Origin: Echinarachnius parma
Lineage: Eukaryota; Echinodermata; Echinoidea; Clypeasteroida; Echinarachniidae
DNA length: 64,000 nucleotides
Assembly (NCBI GenBank): GCA_037951105.1
Contig: JBAMJV010005473.1
Span: 1-64,000 of the forward strand
Reading direction: 5' to 3'
The translations under genes were made by a program, and so were the position numbers. Every line of letters starts with the position of its first letter. Within the stretch, counting starts at the first letter, position 1. The notes below the pieces were generated by a model. The model was given only the letters and a program-made list of their open reading frames with translations, had not been told where the DNA came from and did not search any database. Below, one piece after another: positions 25,501 through 49,500 of the stretch.

Positions 25501-28500
25501 TATTCAACATGACTCGGCCTTAGTGTTTAGCCTTAATACCAATTAAAATCATTCTTTGCTGTATGCAGATTTTCTGTCCTCTGCCAAGACTTCAATAGTT
25601 CGAACGTGAACATCAATATTACTTGGGACTTTACCAGACTTATCCTTCAAAATGCCTGGGAAAAATTGCAACAAGTTTTAAAAATCCCCCTTTTCAGTGT
25701 GTTAGTCAGGCTTTAAAGGGATCTATTAACTTTGTTGACATGTGCAAATCTGACGTGGATTGATAAAATGTGTATTTATGTAATCTGATATGTAACTGAG
25801 TGATGTGTACAAATTCCATGTTAAATGAATGTCATATGGCCGAGTAATGAAAACAAATGCAAAGTGATGATTGTACACAGTTTTTATTAACCAGTGGATA
25901 ATTACAAATTCCAACTCTCTAATCGTAAATATCTTTCTAAGAAAAGAGAAGTTTGGATACCACAATGTATTCCATTCTTGTATAGGAAATTATACAAATG
26001 CAACAAGGATGCACAACCGCAAAAGTTACATTTTTGTGGATTTTGACAATGTTACTATATATTCCTTTTTGGCCCCCCCCTGTCGTTTTTTTCGACGTGC
26101 ATCTAGACCGTTTGGAATTTCAAGTTCAAACTTCATGACTATTTTCTCTCAAGTCTCCCGCATGTTTTGATATATAATTCACCCCTGTCGGACCTGTAGA
26201 TCTGATTTTAGAGGTCGATAATTGCTCGTCCGTCACAAAAAAATGTAATTTTTGTACAGGTTTCTATGTAATTCCTATATCCGATGCCATGTAAACTCCA
26301 AATCTGTTATAATTGTTACTTTGAATTATAATTTGGATTATTTCTTTGTTATTAGTTGAATTCATACACTTCAGAGATAAATTCTTCTTAAAAAAACAAA
26401 AAAACAACAACAAAAAACAATAAAATACATAAGAATTAAAACAATGTGGATAAATCCGGGAATACTAATTTGCATATTTATGCAAATTAGTGATATATTT
26501 TATCACCATAAAAAACATGGATATGATGAATAACATCATTTGAAAGTATTTTTACAGAAAACCTGAAGAAATCCTGTAATTTCTTTTGATTTTAGATGAA
26601 AATCCCAAATTTTCCCCAAATTCGTCAAAAATTTGCATATTCAAAATTTTAATTAATTATAAAAAAAAAAATAATGGTCCAATTTTTGTTTTCTTTTTCA
26701 TATTCTTATTCTACTTGACTTGTTTTACGTGTGTGCCAATTTTCAAGTCGATCGGTCCATTCGTTGCCGAGATTTGAGGGGGGGGCCAAAACAGCCCCCC
26801 CCCCCCCCCCCCCAGTGGACTCAAGTGACCAAAATAACCCAGTGGGATTAGGGTTAAAGGAATCCTTGAGATTTAAATTGTGGTGTTGTTGATGTAATGT
26901 ATACTGGATTCATGTGTGGTTTGTGCTTTTTCCTCTTCTTTCTTGCATGTTGCTGTACCTATAGTAGACCAGACGGCCAAGATGAAGTACCTCTTCAGGG
27001 ACGCACGCTACTTTGTCATCAAGAGCAACAATCATGAGAACATTGCATTGGCAAAGACAAAGGTATGCCCCTTCTCAAATGGTTACCCCTTTCCTGGGTG
27101 CCCCTTCTCATATGGTTACCCCTTTTCTGGGTGCCCCCTTCTCATGTACCCCCTTTTCCTGGGTGCCTCCTTCTCCCCATGTATCCCCTTTCCTGGGTGC
27201 CCCTTCTCACATGGTTACCCCTTTCCTGGGTGCCCCTTTTCACATGGTTACCCCTTTCCTGGGTGCCCCCTTCTTGGGTGCCCCTTCTTCCCATGTACCC
27301 CTTTCCTGGGTGCCCCCTTCTCCCCATGTACCCCTTTCCTGGGTGCCCCCTTCTCACATGGTTACCCCTTTCCTGGGTGCCCCTTCTCACATGTTTACCC
27401 CTTTCCTGGGTGCCCCCTTCTTCCCATGTACCCCCTTTCCTGGGTGCCCCCTTCTTCCCATGTACCCCCTTTCCTGGGTGCCCCCTTCTTCCCATGTACC
27501 CCCTTGCCTGGGTGCCCCTTCTCCCCATGTACCCCCTTTCCTGGGTGCCCATTCTCACATGGTTACCCCTTTCGTGGGTGCCCCCTTTTCCACATGTACC
27601 CCCTTGCCTAGGTGCCCCTTCTCACATGGTTACACCTTTCCTGGGTGCCCCTTATTATATGGTTACCCCTTTCCTGAGTGTCCCTTCTCACATGGTTACC
27701 CCTTTCCTGGGTGTCCCCCCTCACATGGTTACCCCTTGCCTGGGTGTCCCTTCTCACATGGTTACCCCTTGCCTGGGTGCCCCTTCTCACATGGTTACCC
27801 CTTACCTGGGTGTCCCTTCTCACATGGTTACCCCTTGCCTGGGTGTCCCTTCTCACATGGTTACCCCTTGCCTGGGTGTCCCTTCTCACATGGTTACCCC
27901 TTGCCTGGGTGTCCCTTCTCACATGGTTACCCCTTGCCTGGGTGTCCCTTCTCACATGGTTACACCTTTCCTGGGTGACCCCTAATCCCCATGTACCCCC
28001 TTGCCTGGGTGCGAATTTTTTTTTCCCAAACAGGTTTACAAATCCTTGTGAATTAGCGACTTGGTCAGAGACCACGCATACCCGACATTTCCGACTTGTA
28101 TAATATCGAACATTGAGTACGATTTTACGCAAAAGAAGCGGCAAAGCCGGGTTTCGAACCCGGCGTCTTTAAATTATCAGACTAGCATGCTTCCGATTGC
28201 GCCACAGCGATTCACTTGATTTGTGGCAGGACAGAAGGGGTTTTGTCTTAGTTTCGGGGGATATATAACCCTAACCTAACCCTAATTTGGTGGCTATAGG
28301 TCAGATTAGTGGCTATAGGTCAGATTTAGTGGCTATAGGTCAGATTTAGTAGCTATAGGTCTATTTATAACTCAAATTGAATACGCGCGCTTTGGTCTCC
28401 ATTCAAGTCGCCCGATTCCAATTAAACGGGCATATCTTATGCGTTAACTAGTGCCATAGTAAACCTGTTTGGGAAAACAAAATTTGCTGCCTGGGTGTCC

Positions 28501-34500: not shown

Positions 34501-37500
34501 TAGTGCAAAAAGTAGCGGGAGGCATCGCAGCACATTAAACAGTGTAAGCGAAAGTGCAAATGTTGACAATGCTGGGAGAGGAAGTGTGTTACATGATGAG
34601 GCAGAGACTCTGGCTGGGGAGGAAGATGCTGAGCTGTCGGAGGAGGAAGTGTTTCCACCTCACGATCTGGAGGACTATGTATCTCTTGATGAAGGGGATC
34701 TTTGGGTTGGTGAAGCCCTTGAATCTACAAGTCCCCATCCTAGGCCTGTGTCAAGGCACAGAATCAAAAGGCAACGACCCACCCAGGGTCCTTCTAGAGG
34801 TGTGCATGTGATGCCACAGCGTGGTCTTCCCAGGTTAGTGACATCACACCAGGGTGTCCCGAGACAAGTCCGATGGCAGCAACAGAAGCGAGACCCTAGA
34901 GTTGGCCAGGGTGCTATGCATAGCAGTAGCAGTGGCAGAGCGTCACATCTCAACATGGCAAACACCATTCCCCAAACCATTGAATTTGACTATGCGCATG
35001 TAGGTTCCAATAGTACCCGCTTTAATGGGGAACTTTTGAACCAAGAGGAGGAGTACTCTAGCCTTGACGGTGAGGGTGTGATGTCACCAAGAAGACCTTT
35101 CAGGAACAGTGGACTGGACCAGCTATGTCATGAAGATGTTAATGTTGTAGACAGCCATGTAGAGTTTGATAACCACAGAGAACAATACCAACATAATCAG
35201 AGACATGAAATGGAAACACTTTTACGTGATGCGGCTACAAAATTAGGTGATCAGGTAAGTTAATTGATTTTGTTATCATTCCTTCATGTTAGCTTTCTGT
35301 TTATGATGTGTATTTACTACTTGTATTTAGACAAATAATTTGCAGGTAAAAAAAAAATAACAGCACCTCTTGCCTTATTAGTTCAAAAGAGTAAATTTGT
35401 ATTTGACACAGAGAGGGAGACTAGAAGCTTATAAATGCAATTTACCCACTGAATATTCAATGAAATTCATGTAAGTCATGCCAATTTCTTAATTTACGAA
35501 TGCATTGAATTTGATCATAACTACCAGTGCATGATGTCATTTTTGTCGAGCCACCGTAGGTGGAGGGAGACTTAAGGGATCCAAATTGCGTCCGTCGGTC
35601 CGTCCGTCTGTCTGTCCGTCCGTGACGCTTACACAAATTTGAACTTGATTGGTAGATGCCCTATACCGGCCTCCATGATATGCTGGGGTCAAAGGTCACA
35701 TAAGTAGGTCAAAGGTCAAATGAGGGTCAATGTGAAGTTTTTGGGGTAAGAGTCTATTAGGGTCGATAACTTTCCAACCCTGCATCTGTTTGTAACCAAA
35801 CTTGATTGGTAGATGCCCTACATTGGCCTCCATGATATTCTGGGGTCAAAGGTCACATAAGTAGGTCAAAGGTCAAATGGGGTCAAATGTGAAGTTTTAC
35901 CTGCAAGAGTCTATTAGGGTTGATAACTTTCCAACCCTGCATCTGTTTGTAACCAAACTTGATTGGTAGGTGCCCTATATTGGCCTCCATAATATTATGG
36001 GGTCAAAGGTCACATAAGTAGGTCAAAGGTCAATGTGAAATTTTACCTGCAAGAGTCTATTAGAGTTAATAACTTTCCAACCCTGCATCTGTTTGTAACC
36101 AAACTTGATTGGTAGGTGCCCTATATTGGCCTCCATGGGGTCAAAGGTCAAAGTAGGTCAAAGGTCAAATGAGGTCCAATGTTGCATGAATGTGCGCAAG
36201 TGGGCGAGACACTTTACGGCTATCGCCTTGTTTGATAGTGGGAGTTTCAGATTTTAAAATATTTTGTATAGACGAGGACATGTTGTTAATTTGTAACTAT
36301 AAGTTTTAAAAAAAGTCTTACATTGTTATGAGGAATTGAAAAGTTAAATATTATAGATATTATTAAGTGTTGTTGTCATTAATATTTCTTTCAAGTTGTA
36401 ACCAAATGTACCAATTTGTTTGCTTGATGTTTTTCCCAGTCCTCCCTGCAGTTGAGGGTCAGTCAGCTGGAGAGTGTGCTGGGTGATCTGATCAAGGTTG
36501 TACAGGGGCTGGTGCGCACAGATCAGCCAGGATCCACCAGGGGACATCCTTCATCCCAGGAAAGGCGGTCAAACATTCGGACTAGAGAAAGAGCAGGACA
36601 GAGAGGTCAAGCACAGAACATTCAGTCACATGTGCGTGGCAGTCAAAGGAATGCAGAAGTTGATGTTGATCTAGTGCATAGCTTGCCAAAGAATAGAGTT
36701 GGTGTCCCAAATAATGTAGAGTTGGAAAGCCAAGTGCATATATTGCCAAAGAATAGAGTCAATGTCCAAAATAACATGGAAATGGAGATCCAAGTGCATA
36801 CTTTCCCAAAGAATAGAGTAAACTTTCAGAGCAATATGGAAGTCCAGAACCAAATGCTCAACTTGCCATCAAACAAATCAAGATTTGAAGAAAACACAGC
36901 GATTGACAGCTCCATGGAAAGCTTGGAGGATAGCTTGCCAAAGAATAGAGTAAACACCCAAATCAACATAGATCTTGCCAAACAAATGCCAAACTTGCCA
37001 AAGAACAGTGTCGGCACACAAAGAAACATGACACGTAAAGAAAACCATGCATCTCAGACTTGCCACAAGGATGCAAATAGAAATGCTAATGAGTGGAATC
37101 ATGCAATGTGTGACTTAAATGATGAGACAGATGACCTGCCTTCAGATCAGCAAAACAGAGAATCTAGTACACTGAAAGGGTCAGATACCATTGCAGCTCA
37201 TTGTAATAGCGGAATTAAAGAAGTTCCAGAGGCTCCTGAAGCTCTGAGTGGGTGTAGACACTTACCTAGTACCTCTTCTGTATTAGAACAACATCCTACT
37301 TGTGAAAATGAGACACTTGATGATGCACCTGTTGAAAATAGATCAGGATGCCAAGGAAATGTTCCTGGACAAGATGAAACATCTCCAAAGGATGATGCCT
37401 CTGGACTAGATGGAAGAACTCCACACAACAGGACATCAGTAGAGCAAGGTGCTGTGAGCTATGAGCAATGTTCCTCCAGTGGGGAGGGATCAGAGACTGT

Positions 37501-40500
37501 ACATCCCCCGGTGCCTGATAGTCCTGTGATCATCCTTGTGAAGTCTGAGGTTGAGGACGAGAGCAGCTGTATGTCTGTACCCATTAGACTTTGCCAAAGT
37601 GTTTCCAGCAAAGGGAGCTTAGATGGTGCTTCCACTAGTGATCATAATATTGGACACAGCTCTTCGGTGCCTTCGTATTTAGGAGATGAGGTCAGCACAG
37701 CTTTTGAGCAACCCATCTCACTAATACAAAACAAGAAAGGTGATGTGAATGACACAGTGCAGCAGCCAGCAAATATGAAATCCTTGCGGGAGATTTTCAC
37801 TTCTGTCACAGGGTCCAGTATGGATGACCTCTTTGGAGAGCAGACTGTGTCTAGGAGCCTGCAAGCATTTAGAAACCCCACTTTGTCACAACTCGATCAA
37901 GCACCTTTGTTAGCTGCAAGCAAGGCAAATGTTGTCCAGCTTTCCATGCATAATACATCTCAGCATCATTCCCACGAGAGACATTTTGCTGATCCTATCC
38001 TTCTGAATGGAAGCAGGAACTTCCAAACAAGTGCAGGATTGAATCCTGTTGTCATCATACCAAGAGAAAGCAGTCCCCATGTACCTGGGCTGTATGCCCA
38101 GCAATCCCAAGCAGCTGCCACTATTCCTGGTTTGAGAAACTTGCATAGTATGAATCCTGCACAGAATACACATCATATGATGCGTAGTGTTCCTGGAGTT
38201 ACCTCAGGCAGAGTTTCCAACTGGCCAGAACCTATGGGAAATGTCCAGAAGCCTCTAGGTCAAGTATCCATGCCCAACAGAATTGAAGTCCTTGAAAGCT
38301 CCTTACATGGTCATCCAGAACAGAGGCTTTCTAGCAGCGGTTCTCCGATCAGATTACGACTTGGCCCTCAGAGCAATGGACATACTCATAGCCACAAGAA
38401 GGTCATCCCAACCATAGCGGAATGTACAAATGTCCACCTCCGATCGGTACCAAACAACCGCGGCAAATTGGTTGTCAATTATGACGACCTCCCCCACATG
38501 ATGAACATGAATAGCCAGGCTGGTGTTGGGAACCAAGGACGTTCCGTCAATGAGCAACCAAACCAGGCAGTTATCAATCTTGATGACGATGGCGACTGTG
38601 CCATTGTTTTGCAGGATGCTGTGTCGGTTGGAGGTCAGAGTGATCAGAATCAGGCATATGCATATGCTGACAGTAAGTGTCTTGCTTAATAGTTGCTTTT
38701 ATCACATTATTTGTAATGGGAATATGGGATTCTGGCAGTAAAGCTAAAACTTGGCAAGCATTTTTCAAATACTCTATTTTGTGCCACATTTTGCAAAATT
38801 GAACTATCCAAATCAAAGATATAATTCAATGGCAATATAACAATTATTTTCTTTTCTTTATACACCAGATATCCAATACAATGACTAAAGAGCAAGTATA
38901 TTATCTGTATTGTACTCCGTAGTAACCCACGTTGAAGAAGAAGATTGTCTGTATACACCAGGGCCGGTATTCAATTCCATACTTAAGTCAACAGTTAAGC
39001 AGTTTAAATTGGAATTAAAATTATTCATCAACTGAAAATCTGACCAGAATTTGTATGTCATAGTGTCTTCAAATATTACATTTAGATTATGTTTTACTGA
39101 ATTAAAAGTCTGAAAATCAATTTTAATAAGAGATGAGTAAAGTTCTCAACTTAGAAAAATGCTTAGTAAATTTCTTAATCTAAGAATTGAATTGAATACC
39201 AGCCGATACAATGACTTTAGAACAAGGATTTTTATTCTGTATCTACACTAGATATCATAACCAGGATCCTAAAGGAGAGAGACTGGAGTATGGCACGGTC
39301 CTGTGTAGACGGAGCTACGTCCCTGGCCAGAGCTCTTGCTCAGGCTCTGTTTGGGGATAACATCCTCATACGCAGCACCTTCAAGAGCCAGGGTAGGGGC
39401 AGAGACTACGAGGAACTCGATCCAACCATTCTACAGAAAGTCAGAGGTTAGCTTTTCTTGATTCTAACTTCTAAGTGAATTGTCATAGTTTGGTTTAATA
39501 TCTCTGAATATACAAATTATGATTTTAGTTTCAAATTGTATGTACTATTTAACCCTAAAAAGGCCGGGCTATTTGAGGTCTTCAGCAGGCCGGGGGGGGG
39601 GGGGGGGGGGGCATTATGGCCATTATGGCCCCCCCCCCTAAGATCTCGGCCGCGGAGCAGCCGATCGGTGTGAAAATTTGCACGCATGATGAGTGAAGTG
39701 TATAGAATACAATGGTAATTTTAGTTTTTTGAAAAATTCATTAATTTGCATATTTATGGTAATTTATGCAAATAAGGTCATAAAATTCATATTTTTACCC
39801 ATAAATCATATATTCTTCATAATTAAACATTGGTTTTCACTACATATATTCTTTAGAGCATTTGGAATAATAATGCGACAACAAAATTTGGAAGAGCCAG
39901 GTTCTTCCTTATGTATCTTATGTTCTTCCTTATGTTATGTATACTTCGAACAAAAAGTTCCGCAATCGAGGTTTGCGCATTAATAACTTTTCTACTAGGT
40001 TATTACCATTGATAAATTTGGTATCATTGGAAAGCGTGAATTCTCCCCTTTACATTGATATAACATTTGCTATGAGTATTTTATCATGGAATGTGCATTG
40101 CATCCAAATGTAGGGCAAAGTCAAAAGTGAAATGTTGCAAAATGCACTGATTCTGTCAACAAAGGGCCTTCCTTTTGTTTGAAGATTAAAATGTGGCTTG
40201 AATGCCTATTACGTTATTACCATTCATAAATTTGGTATCATTGGAAAGCGTGAATCCTCCTCTTTACATTGATATAACATTTGCTATGGATATTTTATCA
40301 TGGAATGTACATTACATCCGAATGTAGGGCAAAGTAAAAAATGAAATGTTGCAAAATGCACTGATTTTGTCAAGCCAAGGAAGGCACTATGTTGACAAAA
40401 TCAGTGCATTTTGCAACATTTCACTTTTGACTTTGCCCTACATTTGGATGCAATGCACATTCCATGATAAAATATTCATAGCAAATGTTATATCAATGTA

Positions 40501-43500
40501 AAGAGGAGGATTCACGCTTTCCAATGATACCAAATTTAAGAATGGTAATAGCGTAATAAAAAAGTTATTAATGCGCAAACCTCGATTGCGGAACTTTTTG
40601 TGCGAGGTATATTTCTTTGTTTTTTTAAACTTACGTATTGTATTGTTTTTGTTGTTTATTTTATTTCTAACTATAATTCAACTATTTTGAACCCCAAAAC
40701 AAACATATAAAATGTAAACCAAATAACCAATGATATACCTCTTTTTACGAAAACTGATATTGCCATATGTTTTGTACACAAATCACGAAATTGAGCGATT
40801 TTCGGGCTGACATGCATAGACAAAAGGTCATGTGACATCGTAACGGTAGGTCCGATTTTCAAAATTTTTGTTTTAAAATATGCGCAAGACCCCCCCAATA
40901 AAAGCAATTAAAAAAAAATCGCGGAGGGGGGGGGGGGGGGGGGGGCATTATGGCCCCCGGCCTTTTTAGGGTTAAATTGTTCAAGACATGTTTTTGCTTT
41001 CAACATCAGTACGTTGATCTTTGCATCAGTTTAACCTTGGTTAGTTATTGACGTAGATACTACTTGGGAGCCTGTATGCAAGATGATTCTCGCCCATGTT
41101 AACACGATATGAACTAGATTCTTTGATAGTGCATGCATGTACACGTAGTTATCCTTATGAGGTTGCACAAACCCCACCGTTAACTTTACTTTGTACACTT
41201 TCTGTGTAATTTGTACCTAGTCATTTCCATTTATGATTGTTTGTTTAAAAATGGTAGATATTGGTGTTGCAAGATTGGTAGAGTGTGCACAAGATTGGTA
41301 GAGTTCAAAATCAGTGTACGGCCATTGTGGTTGTTCTTCGGAAAGATAATTCATCCACTATCACTGCTCTCTACCATTGTGAATAGAAGGTACCTGTTAG
41401 GGAGGTTAAAGCCAATACAAGTATGAATGATCTCATTGCCCATGAGCCACTTTGAAGAAAGCCTTCTCACTTGCCCATGAACTGCTCATGCTCCCCAGGA
41501 CATGGGGATGGTGCACATGTGTGCTGGCTGGCTTGTATCCCATGACTCTGGTCACTTTTTAGTAATTCTAACAAATTATACTGTTTCATTATTAGGGCAC
41601 ATGTAGATCACACCTGGCTATTATAACTTATAAAAAAAAAATTTGCTCCATTTTGCAGATGCAGTGATGAATGTGTTCTGCCAGGGGCAGGACCCCCAGT
41701 TCGGGAAGCACATCTGGGCACAGTGCAAGGCTTCTCTCAGCCAGCGCATGAAGTATCTGCGCAGTCGCTACAATGTCATCTAGATTAGCATTACAAACAA
41801 TGAAATCAAACAACCATTTGATTGTTCTTCTACAGCAGTACTAACAGTTGTTTGTTTTTGTATTACATAGGACATGAAATTGTGCAATAATTAAAGAATA
41901 GTTTGATTTATCCGATTGTGAAATTGGTAGATCAAATTGTGTTGTCATTTTTCTTCCTGAACAATGTTCTCTGCAGAATACACTTGTGTCAGGGTTCAGA
42001 CCTTTCATGAGAACATAAAACGCATTTGTAGAAGACTCACAGTAATGTGACAAAGATGATCTAACCCTCTGCCATGAGAAGGAATAACTTCTCCTGTCAG
42101 GCCATCAGTAATATGATTGAGATGATTGAGATGATTGGTACAGTCAAACCGCATAATAACGAGCACATTGGGCCCATTGGATATACTCTGTTGTCAGATT
42201 TCTCATATCGGGGCTTAAAATGGATAAATGACATAAAACCTGGACCTGTGAAATTACCTCCCTATAGAAGGTACCTTATTATAACAGCTCATTATAAAGA
42301 GGTTCCACCGTATAGTAATGTACATGTTGTCTAAACGTATGTAACGGGAAGAGCTCACTTCATCAGTAGAATTTTGCAATATGGTTGATCATTTCCTTTG
42401 GTATAAGAGGCTGAAAGAAAACTTAAAAAAAAAAAAAAAAAACAGTTAGAGGAGAATAGTAATAAAAACATAAGTACATTGTCAATTTGTGCAATTTAGA
42501 TATGAGAGTTCCATTGTGTGCATTTTTTGGATTTTTCTTGCGATAATGTTACATTCACTTTCTTTGCATGATAGGTGTGCTCAAACCAAGCAAAAGACAA
42601 GCATGAGACTACTCCATGCTAAATAATGAACTCGCGTTCTCACTTGTGGAATATTGTATTGACTTTGAAAATGTAAAAAATTGATAGTCGGTCTCATGAG
42701 TACTGGACTATGAAGATACTGTTGCATTAGAATTCAGGTAATACAAGTACTATAGAAAGTACATGCTTCGGTCTGTTTAAGGAGTTGGATCTATTGTGAT
42801 ATTCAAAATGTTCTTCTTGAAAGTTGTAACGGTTGCTTACTTCAATACTGAGCTCACAGAAAGTCTGTTTGCAAAGAGATATTAAGGTATTCTGATCATG
42901 AAATTATAATTGAAGAGAAAATGTATTTCACTAATGTTTAATCATGAATTGTTTGAGAGCAAAATCCCAACGGACCCTTGAAGGCTGCATCTATAGAAAT
43001 ATAAACCAAAGAATTATAAATATGTTGTGTATTTTTTATATATTTTGACAGAATAATGTGCAAATTGAGGCCAAAAATAAACAGTACAATGCAATATGAG
43101 TGGATAGCATGTTCTCTGTTGTCGTTCCTCTACATATAATGTTTTTCTGTGTTAATGTTCAGTAACACTCCACAGCAAGATGTAGGTACTAATCCTTGCT
43201 TAATCCAGGAATCCAGTATCCAGGAAACTCTAGAATTGTCGCTTGCTGTTACTGATAAGTGCAGAATTCCTGTCGATTCTAGTCGTATATTTCCTCTTGG
43301 GTATCACTAATAATGGAAATGATCTTGTTTTTGAAAACGCTATCAACTGTTTTGACTTGGCACTGGAGGCTGCCATGTTTTCCAACTGTACCATATGAAA
43401 CGTCATCTGAACGCATCTGAGCATGCACTAACAAAAGCGGACTATGTAACCGTTGTTGAATCTGCTGCTATGTCAGTGATTATGTAACCCGCTTTTGTTA

Positions 43501-46500
43501 GTGCACGCTCAGATGTGCTTAGATGACATTTCATATGGTACAGTTGGAAAACATGGCACCCTCCAGTGCTCCGTTAAAACAGTTGATAGTGGTTTCAAAA
43601 TATTGATTATTTCCATTATTAGTGATACCAAAGAGAAAATATATGTGACCGGCTGTAGCAAAACCCTGCACTTGTCGGTAAAAATTAAACTAGATTTTCA
43701 CACCATTAGAAAGGTCCTATCACTATCTTTCATTTCATGCTTTGTTATAACAAATTGGTCAATAATTGGCGAAGATATGATTGTTTCAATTTTACAATCA
43801 TAAGTCTGTAACACACATGTGAACTTAAAATGCCATTTTCTTCAAAACATGAATTACCGACAAGTGCAGGGTTTTGCTATAGCCAGTCACATATGACTAG
43901 AAGTGACAGGGATTCTGCGCTGATCAGTAACAGCAAGCAAACATTCAAGTGTTTCCTTCTTAATTGTGCAGTTTTGCAACCATTTTTTCTCATTGTAGCA
44001 GTTAAAACAGTATATTTTGGTACACTTTTTGTTGAGAGTATTGGCAGCAGCAAAGTAAAGACTACAAAATGAATAATGTGTGCTTGACTTTCAAAATGCT
44101 AGCATTACTTATTTTGTATTCCTAAATTATATTTATTTTTAGAATGTAGATTACAAATATTTTTATGGTAATTAAAGGGTACCACCAGACAGAGATTTAG
44201 CTCTCTTACATCAAAGACATATCTTAAATGAACATACAAAACAAGTCTGTGATCCTGAAAGTATTTCTACATCGCCAGAGAATCATTTTTAATATAACCT
44301 ATCAATCATTATGTCAGCGCAGTTCCGATTACGATATCACTTAACGATCCTCTTATCGGAAGCAACTGCGATATATCGCAGCAAGCAGAGAGAATCTCGA
44401 AAATCTCTTGTGTGCAGCGAATAAAAAATCAACTTGGCGTTCAGAAACAACATCTATCCCGTATGCACGCGTAGCGCTATACAAGCATTGTAATGTTGCA
44501 TGCATTCAGAGTATATCTACATTGTATTATGCATGGTGCGGTGGCTATAATAGCGCTGGGCATTTACCTTGACTCCAACACTGCCGTTGTAGTGTGTACA
44601 TCAAAGTGCGAGCACACACGGGCGTATTGGCGGCATGCCATACGATACTAACTATCGCATGGGCTATGCGATAAATCGCATACTACCATAATAACGTACG
44701 CGTATTGATTGAGCGGTCGTGCAAACAAAGTCGCCCGCGCGAACCAGTAAATAGCCGTGGTTCCGTAGGTCGTAGTAATTAATTGCATTGTTCTCAAATT
44801 ACAGAAACATATCAGACCCCATGAGAGTATGATTGGTATTCACTTATAGTACCAAAACAACTAAGGATTGGTTTTATCATGCCCGGCGGTACCCTTTAAT
44901 AATAACGGTTAAGCTAAAATTCGAAGCATATTTTGAAACGGGTGTTCTAAGATTAATGGGAATTACTTCACGTGTAATTATCAAATCTATACTTGATTAT
45001 TTTAGTATAGCTGATGATGTATTGTGTATGAAATTTGCATTTTGGGTTGCCTTTGTTTGACATGTATTGTGATTTATATTGCATGATGGTGACCTGAATA
45101 TGCTGAGTGCAGAGATGATGTATGAACATTGTAACAGTATGTGAGTATGTACATTTATGTATCAAGTGATTTGTTTGTGTATTTGTGGTGATGTGTGTGT
45201 GCCACTCTTTACATGTAGTACAGGTAAACCATGCAGAAAACTTGCCAAGTAAGTATGAGCATCACAAAGAGGAGTGTTTACTAGTTGTAGTAAAATGTTT
45301 GTTCTATTTATTCATGAAACGCATTTTTCACAGACCTGTCACAAAGACAATTATGTATACATTGCTATAGAGTCATATAATGTATATGTATTTATATTGA
45401 AAAATTAAACATGGTTTGATTACATCAATTTTTATTTAGATACATGTAGCTTGTGAAACACATTTAGCGTTTTTAGATAATTTGAAATGTCATTCATGTC
45501 ATAGGCTCATTCAGTCAAAACTTAGTAAGATTCTTGGTCTATTCTGCTTTCAAGAGATATCCAAAAATGTATTCTGAACCCTATGGGGTTCCTTCCTCAA
45601 TACCTTGTGATAGAATTCAGATAGGTTTCTTGTCTTCATATTATATTCTGTGGACTTCTAAACATGTCAAGAGATTGCTGGACCTTACACACTTTGTCCG
45701 TGCAATGGCAATGTCATATTCAGTGTAATACGGTACCTTGTACATGTATGTCATTGTCATATTTGGTGTAATATGGTACCTTGTACATGTATGTTATGTT
45801 ATCATTGTTATTTGATGCATCTTTCTTTCTGTTGATGTCTGTGCAGGGTGTATGGTCTACCTTGCCCTACAACGAGCAGCGTCTGAACCAAGCCTTCCGG
45901 GAATCCAGGAATGTTCTGCTCATCTTCTCTGTCAAGGAAAGTGGCAAGTTCCAAGGTAGGTTGCTTGCGTCCATATGTAGGCACTTATTCAAATACTGAG
46001 GACTGTGGTGAACTATTTATTTTCTCCCTGTCTGCTCTTGCCAACTAGATCGCGATAAACCCCCCAAATCCACTTACGAGAGAATTAGAGATGCCATTTA
46101 CGAAAGATCCACTGACCACCACAATGTGGTGAAAGTGGATCTCTCCTGTAAATGGGTTTATCGTCTTGTGGTCCCATTGGTTGTTGAGTTAGGCTTGTAT
46201 CGACTTGTTTAATTGGCAATGCCTTCTAAAGGCTTGTGGGAGGGCTAGTGCAAGAAGGGACATAGTATAAGATCAACATTAAATTCTCTTTAATATCAAT
46301 GAGAAAAAATAGTACAGGATTGGAGAATGTACATGTATGTAACTAAGATACATCACATTCTCATAAAACTTGATGCGAGATAGTACACAAAATCATTTAA
46401 CTTCATGGGGTTTTTCAAATGTTTTGTTTCTTTCCTCTTGGTCTTCTACCAATGTTTCAGGCTGTACTCGATGCGGTCAGTGAAAAGAGAGATGGGCAAC

Positions 46501-49500
46501 CCGTCGGCTTCGTTCGTCCTAGTGCCATGAATAGTTCCTTCCAGAAATCTCTTATTTCAATGTCCGCCTGCTTCCTCATTTACTTACTATATCTGTCTTT
46601 ACTAACTTACAAATTTGTTTTGTAGTGCAGGCTTTGCCCGTATGCTAAGTGGTAAATCCAAGAAGGACAAACAACCCATCAGAAGGATCCTTCCTAGTGC
46701 CATGAATAGTTCCTTGTATAGATTCGCCTCCTTTTCTTTCTAACTTTATTGCCTCCCTTTTTTTTTGCTTTGTAGGTATTACTGGTACATGTATCTCTCT
46801 CTGTTTACTTAGTGACTTCCTAATTTGTTTCATGTTACATGTTTCAGAATCTCAGAGAAATGGACAACCCCTTGACTGGGTGCTTCTGAGTGCCATGAAT
46901 GGGACCTTGTACAGATCTTACTCTGCTCATGATAGTATTGCCCTGCCTGCTTACTTAGCTTATTTGCTAACCCTGCTAACTTACTTACATCACTTTGCTA
47001 ACTGATTAATTTGTTTCATGTTTCAGGGTTTGCCCGTATGCGTGGTGAATCCAAGAGGGATGGACAGCCCGTTGACTGGGTGCTGCCCAGTGGCATGAAC
47101 CGATCCATCCTGGGAGGAGTCTTCAAAGTGGATTGGATTACAAGGTAAAATTACTCTCTGCCACTAATTGTGTATAATACGGTATTTGGTCGTGTGCTGA
47201 AATTAGCCTTTAGCGCCATATATAGTAGACTAGCTGGGGTAGTATGCTCCCCTGGGAGTTGAGATGGTGGGCAAGATAATTGTGCAGGTTTGAACTGTAC
47301 CTGATGACCAAGGGTAATAATGCGCCCCTGAATAGGGTGACTCGATGCATGGCGCTCTATAAATGCTAAACATGTATATTATTATTATTATTATTTTACA
47401 TGTAAAAGCTTGATTAGGCCTTGAATTAATTTTGTCATTAATTCGTTATTAAATTTTGTACTGTGATCAATCTCAGTCTCCTGACCTTATTCTGAATTTA
47501 TATCGTGCATGAATTAAATGAATGAATGGACAATTAAGTAAATGAATTTATACATAAATGTAGTTGTGTTTTTCATTGTCTTTCTCCCAGATATAAACTG
47601 CATGCTCATTTTCATTTCTATTATACATTTCTTGTCAGTTTCCTTTTGTTTGAAATTATTTACTTCATAGAGCTGCATCTGTTTGAAGATCCCTCACACA
47701 TATCCCTTAGTTGATTTCTTATCACTAGCATTGAAAAGGGTTTCAGGGACAAACAACCAGCACAAGGGCTTTCTAGCTCAGTAGGGGTGAGCATATTCAT
47801 TCAGCCTAGCAATCAGGAGGTCTCAAGTTGGAATTCCAAGGAAACTATTTTCTTTGCTCATTTTCATAAACGTTATACATTTCTATAAAATCTATTTTTA
47901 ACTTTTGATCACAATACAAATATTTACCTCCAAAATTTTCGGCTGTCATCTACAGCCTTGGTCAGCGATGTGACCCAACTTGACCATCGGGTCGTAGACA
48001 TTCGGTAGCTTGTATCGCCCCCCATCTCAGTTCAGTGAAGGTTGAAAGGCCCGGATGTAGATTGCTTCCTTCACCCCTCTCTCGAAGTATCGAGTCTCCC
48101 TGTCCAAGATGCAAACCTCTTTCAAGTCCACTTGATGGCCAGGAGACTCGATATGGATGTGTTGTGACACCTCCGATGCATACGAGCTGGGGCGTCGGGT
48201 GTTCCAAAAACCTGGTCTTGAGTGATCGTTCTGTTTCTGTGACATCTGTGACATTTCTGGTCACTTTCCCTATGTTTAAAATGTATAAATGAAATTAAAC
48301 ATTGAAGGGAATCATGTTTAATTGTCTTTCCCCAGACATGACCTGCCATTCACCAAGACCACCCACCTCTACAACGTATGGAACGACAACAAGCCAGTCA
48401 AGATTGGCAGAGATGGACAGGTATTCAACCCAAAACCATTTCCTAAAGTAATAGTAGTTTCTGATGGTCTGACAGTGTGGGCATTCATTCTCGTAATGTT
48501 CTGAAGCTAAAGGAAATGTTCCTTGTGATAAAGACATCTTTTAAAACACAATTTTGAACTTACAATCTCAATTCTTTGAAAATAATAATGATCTTCCTGA
48601 TAATTTGTTTACGGGTCTACCAGTTCATTTAGAAAACATTTGGGAACCAGTGCGACCAACTGAAAGACCCATCTGTAATTCTAATTGTTGGGAGGTTGGC
48701 ATTTGCTAGACCCTTTGTTGATAAGTCGGGTGCTCATTCCTGTTTCAGTTCTTCCTCTTCATCATGTCATGGTGAGTAATATGGCAAGTAATAGGTTATG
48801 CTGTCCTGGTGACTGGTGTTCATCCATTGATGTAGGGGATATAAGATACCCTTCCTAATCCTTTGTTTGTTATTCAGTGAAACAGTAGAAGCCATGAGTG
48901 TATTGTTCTTTTCTTTCTCAAACTTATCCAATCTTATCAAAAAAATGTCAAGAGCAGTGCCATGTATGATTATAATTAGAATAAATATGAAATATAGTTA
49001 ACAAAAATAAATATGAAATATGAAGTAGCATTTTTAACTGAAAAAACTCTCATTCTGATGAAATACCAATACAAATTGATTGGCATCAATACTTCATTTT
49101 GGACAGATTGCCATTAAATAATATCCACAACAACTGATCCATTGATTGAATATGAATTACCTCTCAGGAAGTGGAGCCGAAGTGTGGAGAGGCCCTGTGT
49201 CGCCTGTTCCCCCGTGATGAGCACATTGATGTAGTGGAGATCTTGCGAGCTGCTCGGCGTCGCAGGGAGGAGGCAGGCCTCTCAGGCAGGCTGCCCATAC
49301 CCAAGCCACGATTCGAGTAAGACACCAACTAGCAAACTATTCAACCCCACCACTTGTGACTTCAGTTGTATTACACATAAAGTTTAGGCTCTTTTTTAGT
49401 TCTTCATTGAATACAAGCTTTTTTCCTTGTCCATTTACATATTTGGAATGGAAGGAACATACTATTAATTTAATGTTTGTTAAGAAATTTGGTCTACTCA

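Follow-up and report, generated by a model that had tools for sequence, protein, structure and literature searches.

Degenerate partial copies of a YTH-domain exon in intron 9 of Echinarachnius parma YTHDC1, most likely relics of an old tandem duplication

Results

The YTHDC1 locus

The window analysed here is the first 64 kb of a 126,022-base contig (JBAMJV010005473.1, forward strand) in the Echinarachnius parma assembly GCA_037951105.1, which comprises 1.2 Gb in 14,790 contigs. The gene was identified as YTHDC1 by the match of its joined exons 9–12 to human YTHDC1 (PDB match, E 2.2e-58). Its YTH-coding exons are intact, with exons 8–12 encoding a complete YTH domain (Pfam YTH, E 1.4e-47, positions 1–134 of 135). 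Exon 8 was placed by a local score of 118 against a piece of human YTHDC1 (best other place in the window, 36), ends at the donor AAG/GTATGC as read from the sequence, and lies about 19 kb upstream of exons 9–12, beyond an intron 8 of 18.8 kb. A second gene copy or a haplotig was rejected after an assembly-wide protein search with exons 9–12 found no second YTHDC1; its seven scored candidates gave six rows, five of them at the locus itself (exons 9–12 and copy B, see below). The sole other YTH-like row (contig C1775:53845-54252, minus strand, 33% identity) lies in a 636-aa open frame that is perhaps a YTHDF-type reader.

Several further features were seen along the gene. A degenerate array with repeating translated units, read from translations and sequence, begins directly at the exon 8 donor and runs from 27063 to about 28700. 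Intron 8 contains a 753-aa open frame on the same strand (36428-38689) and a further open piece near 39335, which is reminiscent of a BEN domain; the two could possibly represent a nested gene, and Pfam returned no match for the former (E 0.001) or the latter (E 1). Intron 8 also holds nested inverted repeats forming a foldback element at 43222-43957 (arms of 164, 67 and 41 nt, 86, 84 and 95% complementary), and a 43-nt tandem duplication, 88% identical, lies at 45705-45790, about 60 nt before exon 9.

Table 1 Exons, exon 10 copies and spacers in the window; stops are those in the phase set by exon 9.
Feature	Position	Strand	Basis	Remarks
YTHDC1 exon 8	26971..27062 (start approximate)	+	local match to human YTHDC1 piece	N-terminal part of YTH domain
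YTHDC1 exon 9	45847..45955	+	translation; PDB match to human YTHDC1 for joined exons 9-12	
Copy A	46461..46538	+	repeat finder and alignments	frameshifted; stop 46481-46483; acceptor-like TTTCAG kept
Spacer A to B	46539..46630	+	matches spacer C to exon 10	intron-derived part of unit
Copy B	46631..46713	+	repeat finder and alignments	phase kept despite an added codon; Arg in place of Trp; stop 46741-46743 in spacer
Spacer B to C	46714..46847	+	matches spacer C to exon 10	
Copy C	46848..46906	+	repeat finder and alignments	in phase; 21 exon nt lost (one parse); Trp kept; stop 47003-47005 in spacer
Spacer C to exon 10	46907..47026	+	spacer comparison	presumed working acceptor, 8.8 bits
YTHDC1 exon 10 (real)	47027..47144	+	translation, pairwise alignment, protein search	118 nt; 47027-47106 is the repeated part
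YTHDC1 exon 11	48336..48420	+	translation, protein search of assembly	
YTHDC1 exon 12	49168..49316	+	translation, protein search of assembly	

Three degenerate copies upstream of exon 10

Three degenerate copies of the opening 80 nt of exon 10 and of the intron end before it lie in intron 9, all on the strand of the real exon and upstream of it (Table 1). The repeat finder reported four members in register (at 46486, 46661, 46854 and 47054), of which the last three were 68, 72 and 66% identical to the first over 65 nt. The six pairwise local alignment scores (63, 68, 72, 75, 83 and 110) all exceeded the shuffle maxima of 33–41 (300 shuffles per pair), and when the first 80 nt of exon 10 served as the single query, copies B, C and A scored 69, 66 and 51, respectively. 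Copy B was also recovered by the protein search of the assembly (E 0.81). A Pfam search with the translated copies B and C, with hits accepted up to E 1, gave no YTH match. The first-pass annotation of this stretch had described three decayed tandem copies with acceptors at 46460, 46630, 46847 and 47026; both the copies and the four positions were confirmed by sequence and alignment. Significant homology of this kind, linking an exon to the intron beside it on one strand, is one of the marks of a tandem partial exon duplication relic. The copied part had been given as the first half of exon 10; the first part is indeed what was copied, but it amounts to 80 of the 118 exon nt and includes the 3′ end of the intron.

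The repeated unit ends inside exon 10 and extends into the intron

The unit recurs with a spacing of 175–200 bp and consists of the intron 3′ end followed by 80 nt of exon, ending inside exon 10. A scan with the first 71 nt of exon 10 gave scores well above background in the array only, as judged from the 14 top-scoring + strand places listed (best score on the − strand, 27). The final 47 nt of exon 10 (47098-47144), which lead into its donor, had no second occurrence on the window's + strand (best elsewhere, 28), and neither had exons 9, 11 and 12 (best elsewhere 35, 30 and 31); all four values lie far below the scores of the copies. Because the unit is made up of the intron end and 80 exon nt, only the last copy is joined to the remainder of exon 10 and its donor.

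Homology also extended into the flanking intron, as in a duplication at the DNA level: for two of the three spacer comparisons, A to B and B to C each against C to exon 10, only 1 of 1000 shuffles was as good. The comparison of the first two spacers with each other was weak (56 of 1000 shuffles as good), and the sequence before copy A did not match any of the three spacers (446, 470 and 126 of 1000 shuffles as good).

Divergence and reading frames of the copies

Over aligned codons, the differences from the real exon were 27% for copy B (26 codons), 25% for copy C (19) and 28% for copy A (18), the last compared only downstream of its frameshifted start; the copies differed among themselves by 28, 28 and 37%. 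Counted by codon position, the differences between copies were [5,4,6], [5,4,6] and [9,4,8], showing no third-position excess in these short sequences. Against the real exon they were [1,4,10] for copy A, [8,4,9] for copy B and [5,2,7] for copy C. The third-position excess of copy A (P about 0.01, calculated by hand, uncorrected and one of six comparisons) is the one sign of coding constraint, yet copy A is frameshifted, and the excess is partly the real exon's own synonymous change.

Copy B had been described as open in the correct phase and then stopping, and this was borne out. The stops of copies B and C sit in spacer sequence beyond the exon-like parts, so that an in-frame stop on inclusion depends on where the exon would end. 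Copy C is in phase because, under one parse of its acceptor, an in-frame stretch of 21 nt (7 codons) is missing from the exon part. As had been claimed, it retains the tryptophan codon of the m6A cage, which we take to be human W428, where copy B has Arg and copy A Phe. In shuffled intron sequence, open frames as long as those of copy C (51 codons) and copy B (36 codons) occurred with P 0.040 and 0.105; these chance probabilities are not strong.

We simulated drift with substitutions only, without indels, at d 0.30–0.35. A stretch of 78 nt stayed open in 56–58% of cases and at least two of three copies were open with P about 0.6; all three acceptor AGs survived with P 0.14–0.18, and the Trp survived in at least one of three copies in 76–81%. 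The surviving acceptors, open frames and tryptophan thus fit 25–28% neutral divergence.

Variants shared among the copies

Variants shared by the copies and absent from the real exon had suggested that the copies diverged as a group. Of 54 columns comparable in all four sequences, four have the three copies agreeing against the real exon, two join A with B and one joins A with C. The support is weak: given four sequences, the class in which all copies agree simply reflects the branch leading to the real exon, unless an outgroup serves to polarise it. At three of its four columns the real exon has a synonymous third position and may itself have changed there; only the fourth is polarised by the human protein, with Gly in human and the real exon and Ala in the copies. 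In addition, the motif AGTGCCATGAATAGTTCC is exact only in copies A and B, copy C having AGTGCCATGAATGGGACC.

Splice signals and possible splicing roles

Splice sites were scored with approximate weights. The acceptors of copies A, B and C scored 7.3, 4.9 and 7.3 bits, compared to 8.8 for exon 10 and 8.1, 9.5 and 2.2 for the other real acceptors. As the acceptor of exon 12 itself reaches only 2.2, those of the copies are not weak and cannot be called dead. The four real donors scored 10.1, 7.8, 4.7 and 5.7. Between 46461 and 47026, GT sites above 3 bits were found at 46476 (5.4), 46652 (6.4), 46772 (3.3), 46776 (3.3) and 46785 (4.3), and the donor scan found none above 3 bits between the acceptor of copy C and exon 10. 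The strongest acceptor-like site in 45990-47040 (14.2 bits; poly-T followed by TAG) is also at 46776, between copies B and C and outside the exon part of any copy.

These signals bear on the proposal that copies B and C act as poison exons or alternative acceptors, whose joining to exon 9 would introduce a premature stop and lead to nonsense-mediated decay or to a truncated protein unable to bind m6A. Both copies are in the correct phase, with preserved AGs and with stops in the phase of exon 9, and self-regulation by splicing of this kind is reported for many RNA-binding proteins (PMC6547761). However, the donor of exon 10 is present in none of the copies; no site above 3 bits follows copy C, and past its exon-like part copy B has only donors of 3.3, 3.3 and 4.3 bits, the 6.4-bit site lying inside that part. 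The stops of B and C fall outside the exon-like parts, the copies show no codon-position constraint among themselves, and the features they retain are within drift. In the 16 papers listed as containing both YTHDC1 and “poison exon”, neither term appears in a title. We therefore found this proposal of the first-pass annotation unsupported and consider it improbable.

An alternative explanation is that the first 21 nt of copy B (46631-46651) form an in-frame microexon with the donor GTG/GTAAAT, adding FARMLSG inside the YTH domain. Its donor at 46652 scored above two of the four real donors, and 21 nt preserve the frame as read from the sequence. Against this, 106 of the 3681 GT sites in the window reach at least 6 bits, so that one at 46652 is unremarkable, and a similar motif, GTGGTGAAT, stands at the equivalent place in the real exon. 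Exons of such small size need special signals to be recognised well, and the chance that this one is used appears close to negligible.

The copies could also tune exon 10 splicing without being included, as decoy acceptors or RNA-pairing elements. Three acceptor-like sites do remain upstream of the real one, together with the stronger site at 46776, but survival of all three AGs was within chance in the simulation, and no inverted repeats of at least 18 nt were found in intron 9. We regard such tuning as very doubtful. A splicing role of the copies, possible as far as the sequence goes, found no positive support in these analyses.

Local arrays in the same assembly

Twenty 10-kb stretches of this assembly were scanned with overlapping 80-nt windows of similar complexity, and four of them held comparable arrays (at least three local copies with a spacing of at least 100 bp). 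The stretches were taken from contigs carrying the 47172-47300 repeat described below and are not a random sample. Such arrays accounted for 29 of 1385 sampled 80-nt windows, and 17 further windows had at least three copies at shorter spacing. A looser count over 21 stretches gave 82 of 1675 windows, and 5 of 198 when only the most complex were considered. Since local degenerate arrays are common in this genome, finding one across the edge of an exon is no surprise.

On the 40 of 739 candidates that were scored, an origin of the exon 10 array as a dispersed element was rejected: the 39 other genome matches listed all fell on the 47172-47300 repeat, with no match to the array, although array-like sequence may occur elsewhere. 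This repeat is an abundant dispersed sequence just downstream of exon 10 (83–90% identical in those matches), SINE-like by our judgement, and may extend past 47300, where the query ended.

Discussion

The copies are best explained as relics of an old partial tandem exon duplication that decay neutrally and most likely have no function, a reading to which we assign a probability of about 0.88. Roughly 190 bp, running from the last part of intron 9 through nt 80 of exon 10, would have been duplicated in tandem several times, presumably by slippage or unequal exchange. As the duplicated unit ended in the exon, the last copy alone would have remained attached to the exon's remainder and its donor, so that the gene stayed functional. 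The other three would have become intron sequence and drifted by substitutions and indels, and they are probably neutral and not spliced. Some observations run counter to the relic reading: all three acceptor AGs survive at sites that are not weak, copy B gained 3 nt and copy C lost 21 nt without breaking the frame, the open frames of both copies are fairly long for shuffled sequence, copy A differs from the real exon mostly at third positions, the match between the first two spacers is weak and the sequence upstream of copy A does not match any spacer.

YTHDC1 is itself a splicing regulator, and if the copies were spliced they would provide a means of tuning m6A reading. Recruitment of the duplicated acceptor side of a YTH exon as a splicing switch that turns off m6A reading in YTHDC1 is, in our estimate, highly improbable. 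As relics, the copies illustrate neatly that a tandem duplication ending inside an exon can spare the gene and fill an intron with exon-like decoys, which a human annotator or a gene finder may take for alternative or poison exons. Literature listings yielded no mention of the YTHDC1 exon 10 copies, and YTHDC1 combined with exon duplication gave nothing relevant.

Dscam1, Mhc and 14-3-3 zeta are named as mutually exclusive exon arrays in PMC9013439. The YTHDC1 array is like these in that several tandem relatives adjoin one exon in one gene. As far as is known, mutually exclusive copies in those genes are complete exons that carry an acceptor and a donor and preserve the frame. The YTHDC1 copies are not, and the + strand and donor scans did not show the complete set of acceptor, full exon and donor in each of them. 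With the poison exons of RNA-binding protein genes the copies share that in-phase inclusion would bring a stop, depending on where the exon ended; unlike those exons, they have no donor comparable to most real ones.

A further comparison is with tandem exon duplications in human genes, for which Ivanov and Pervouchine (2022, PMC9013439) give 4,027 unannotated intronic targets homologous to exons. The cases described there differ from the YTHDC1 copies, in which 80 of 118 exon nt were copied, on the acceptor side and without the donor, and the identity of 72–75% in aligned codons compares with the 80% cut-off of the main counts in that study. The likeness lies in the arrangement itself, an unannotated homologue of an exon within an intron of its own gene.
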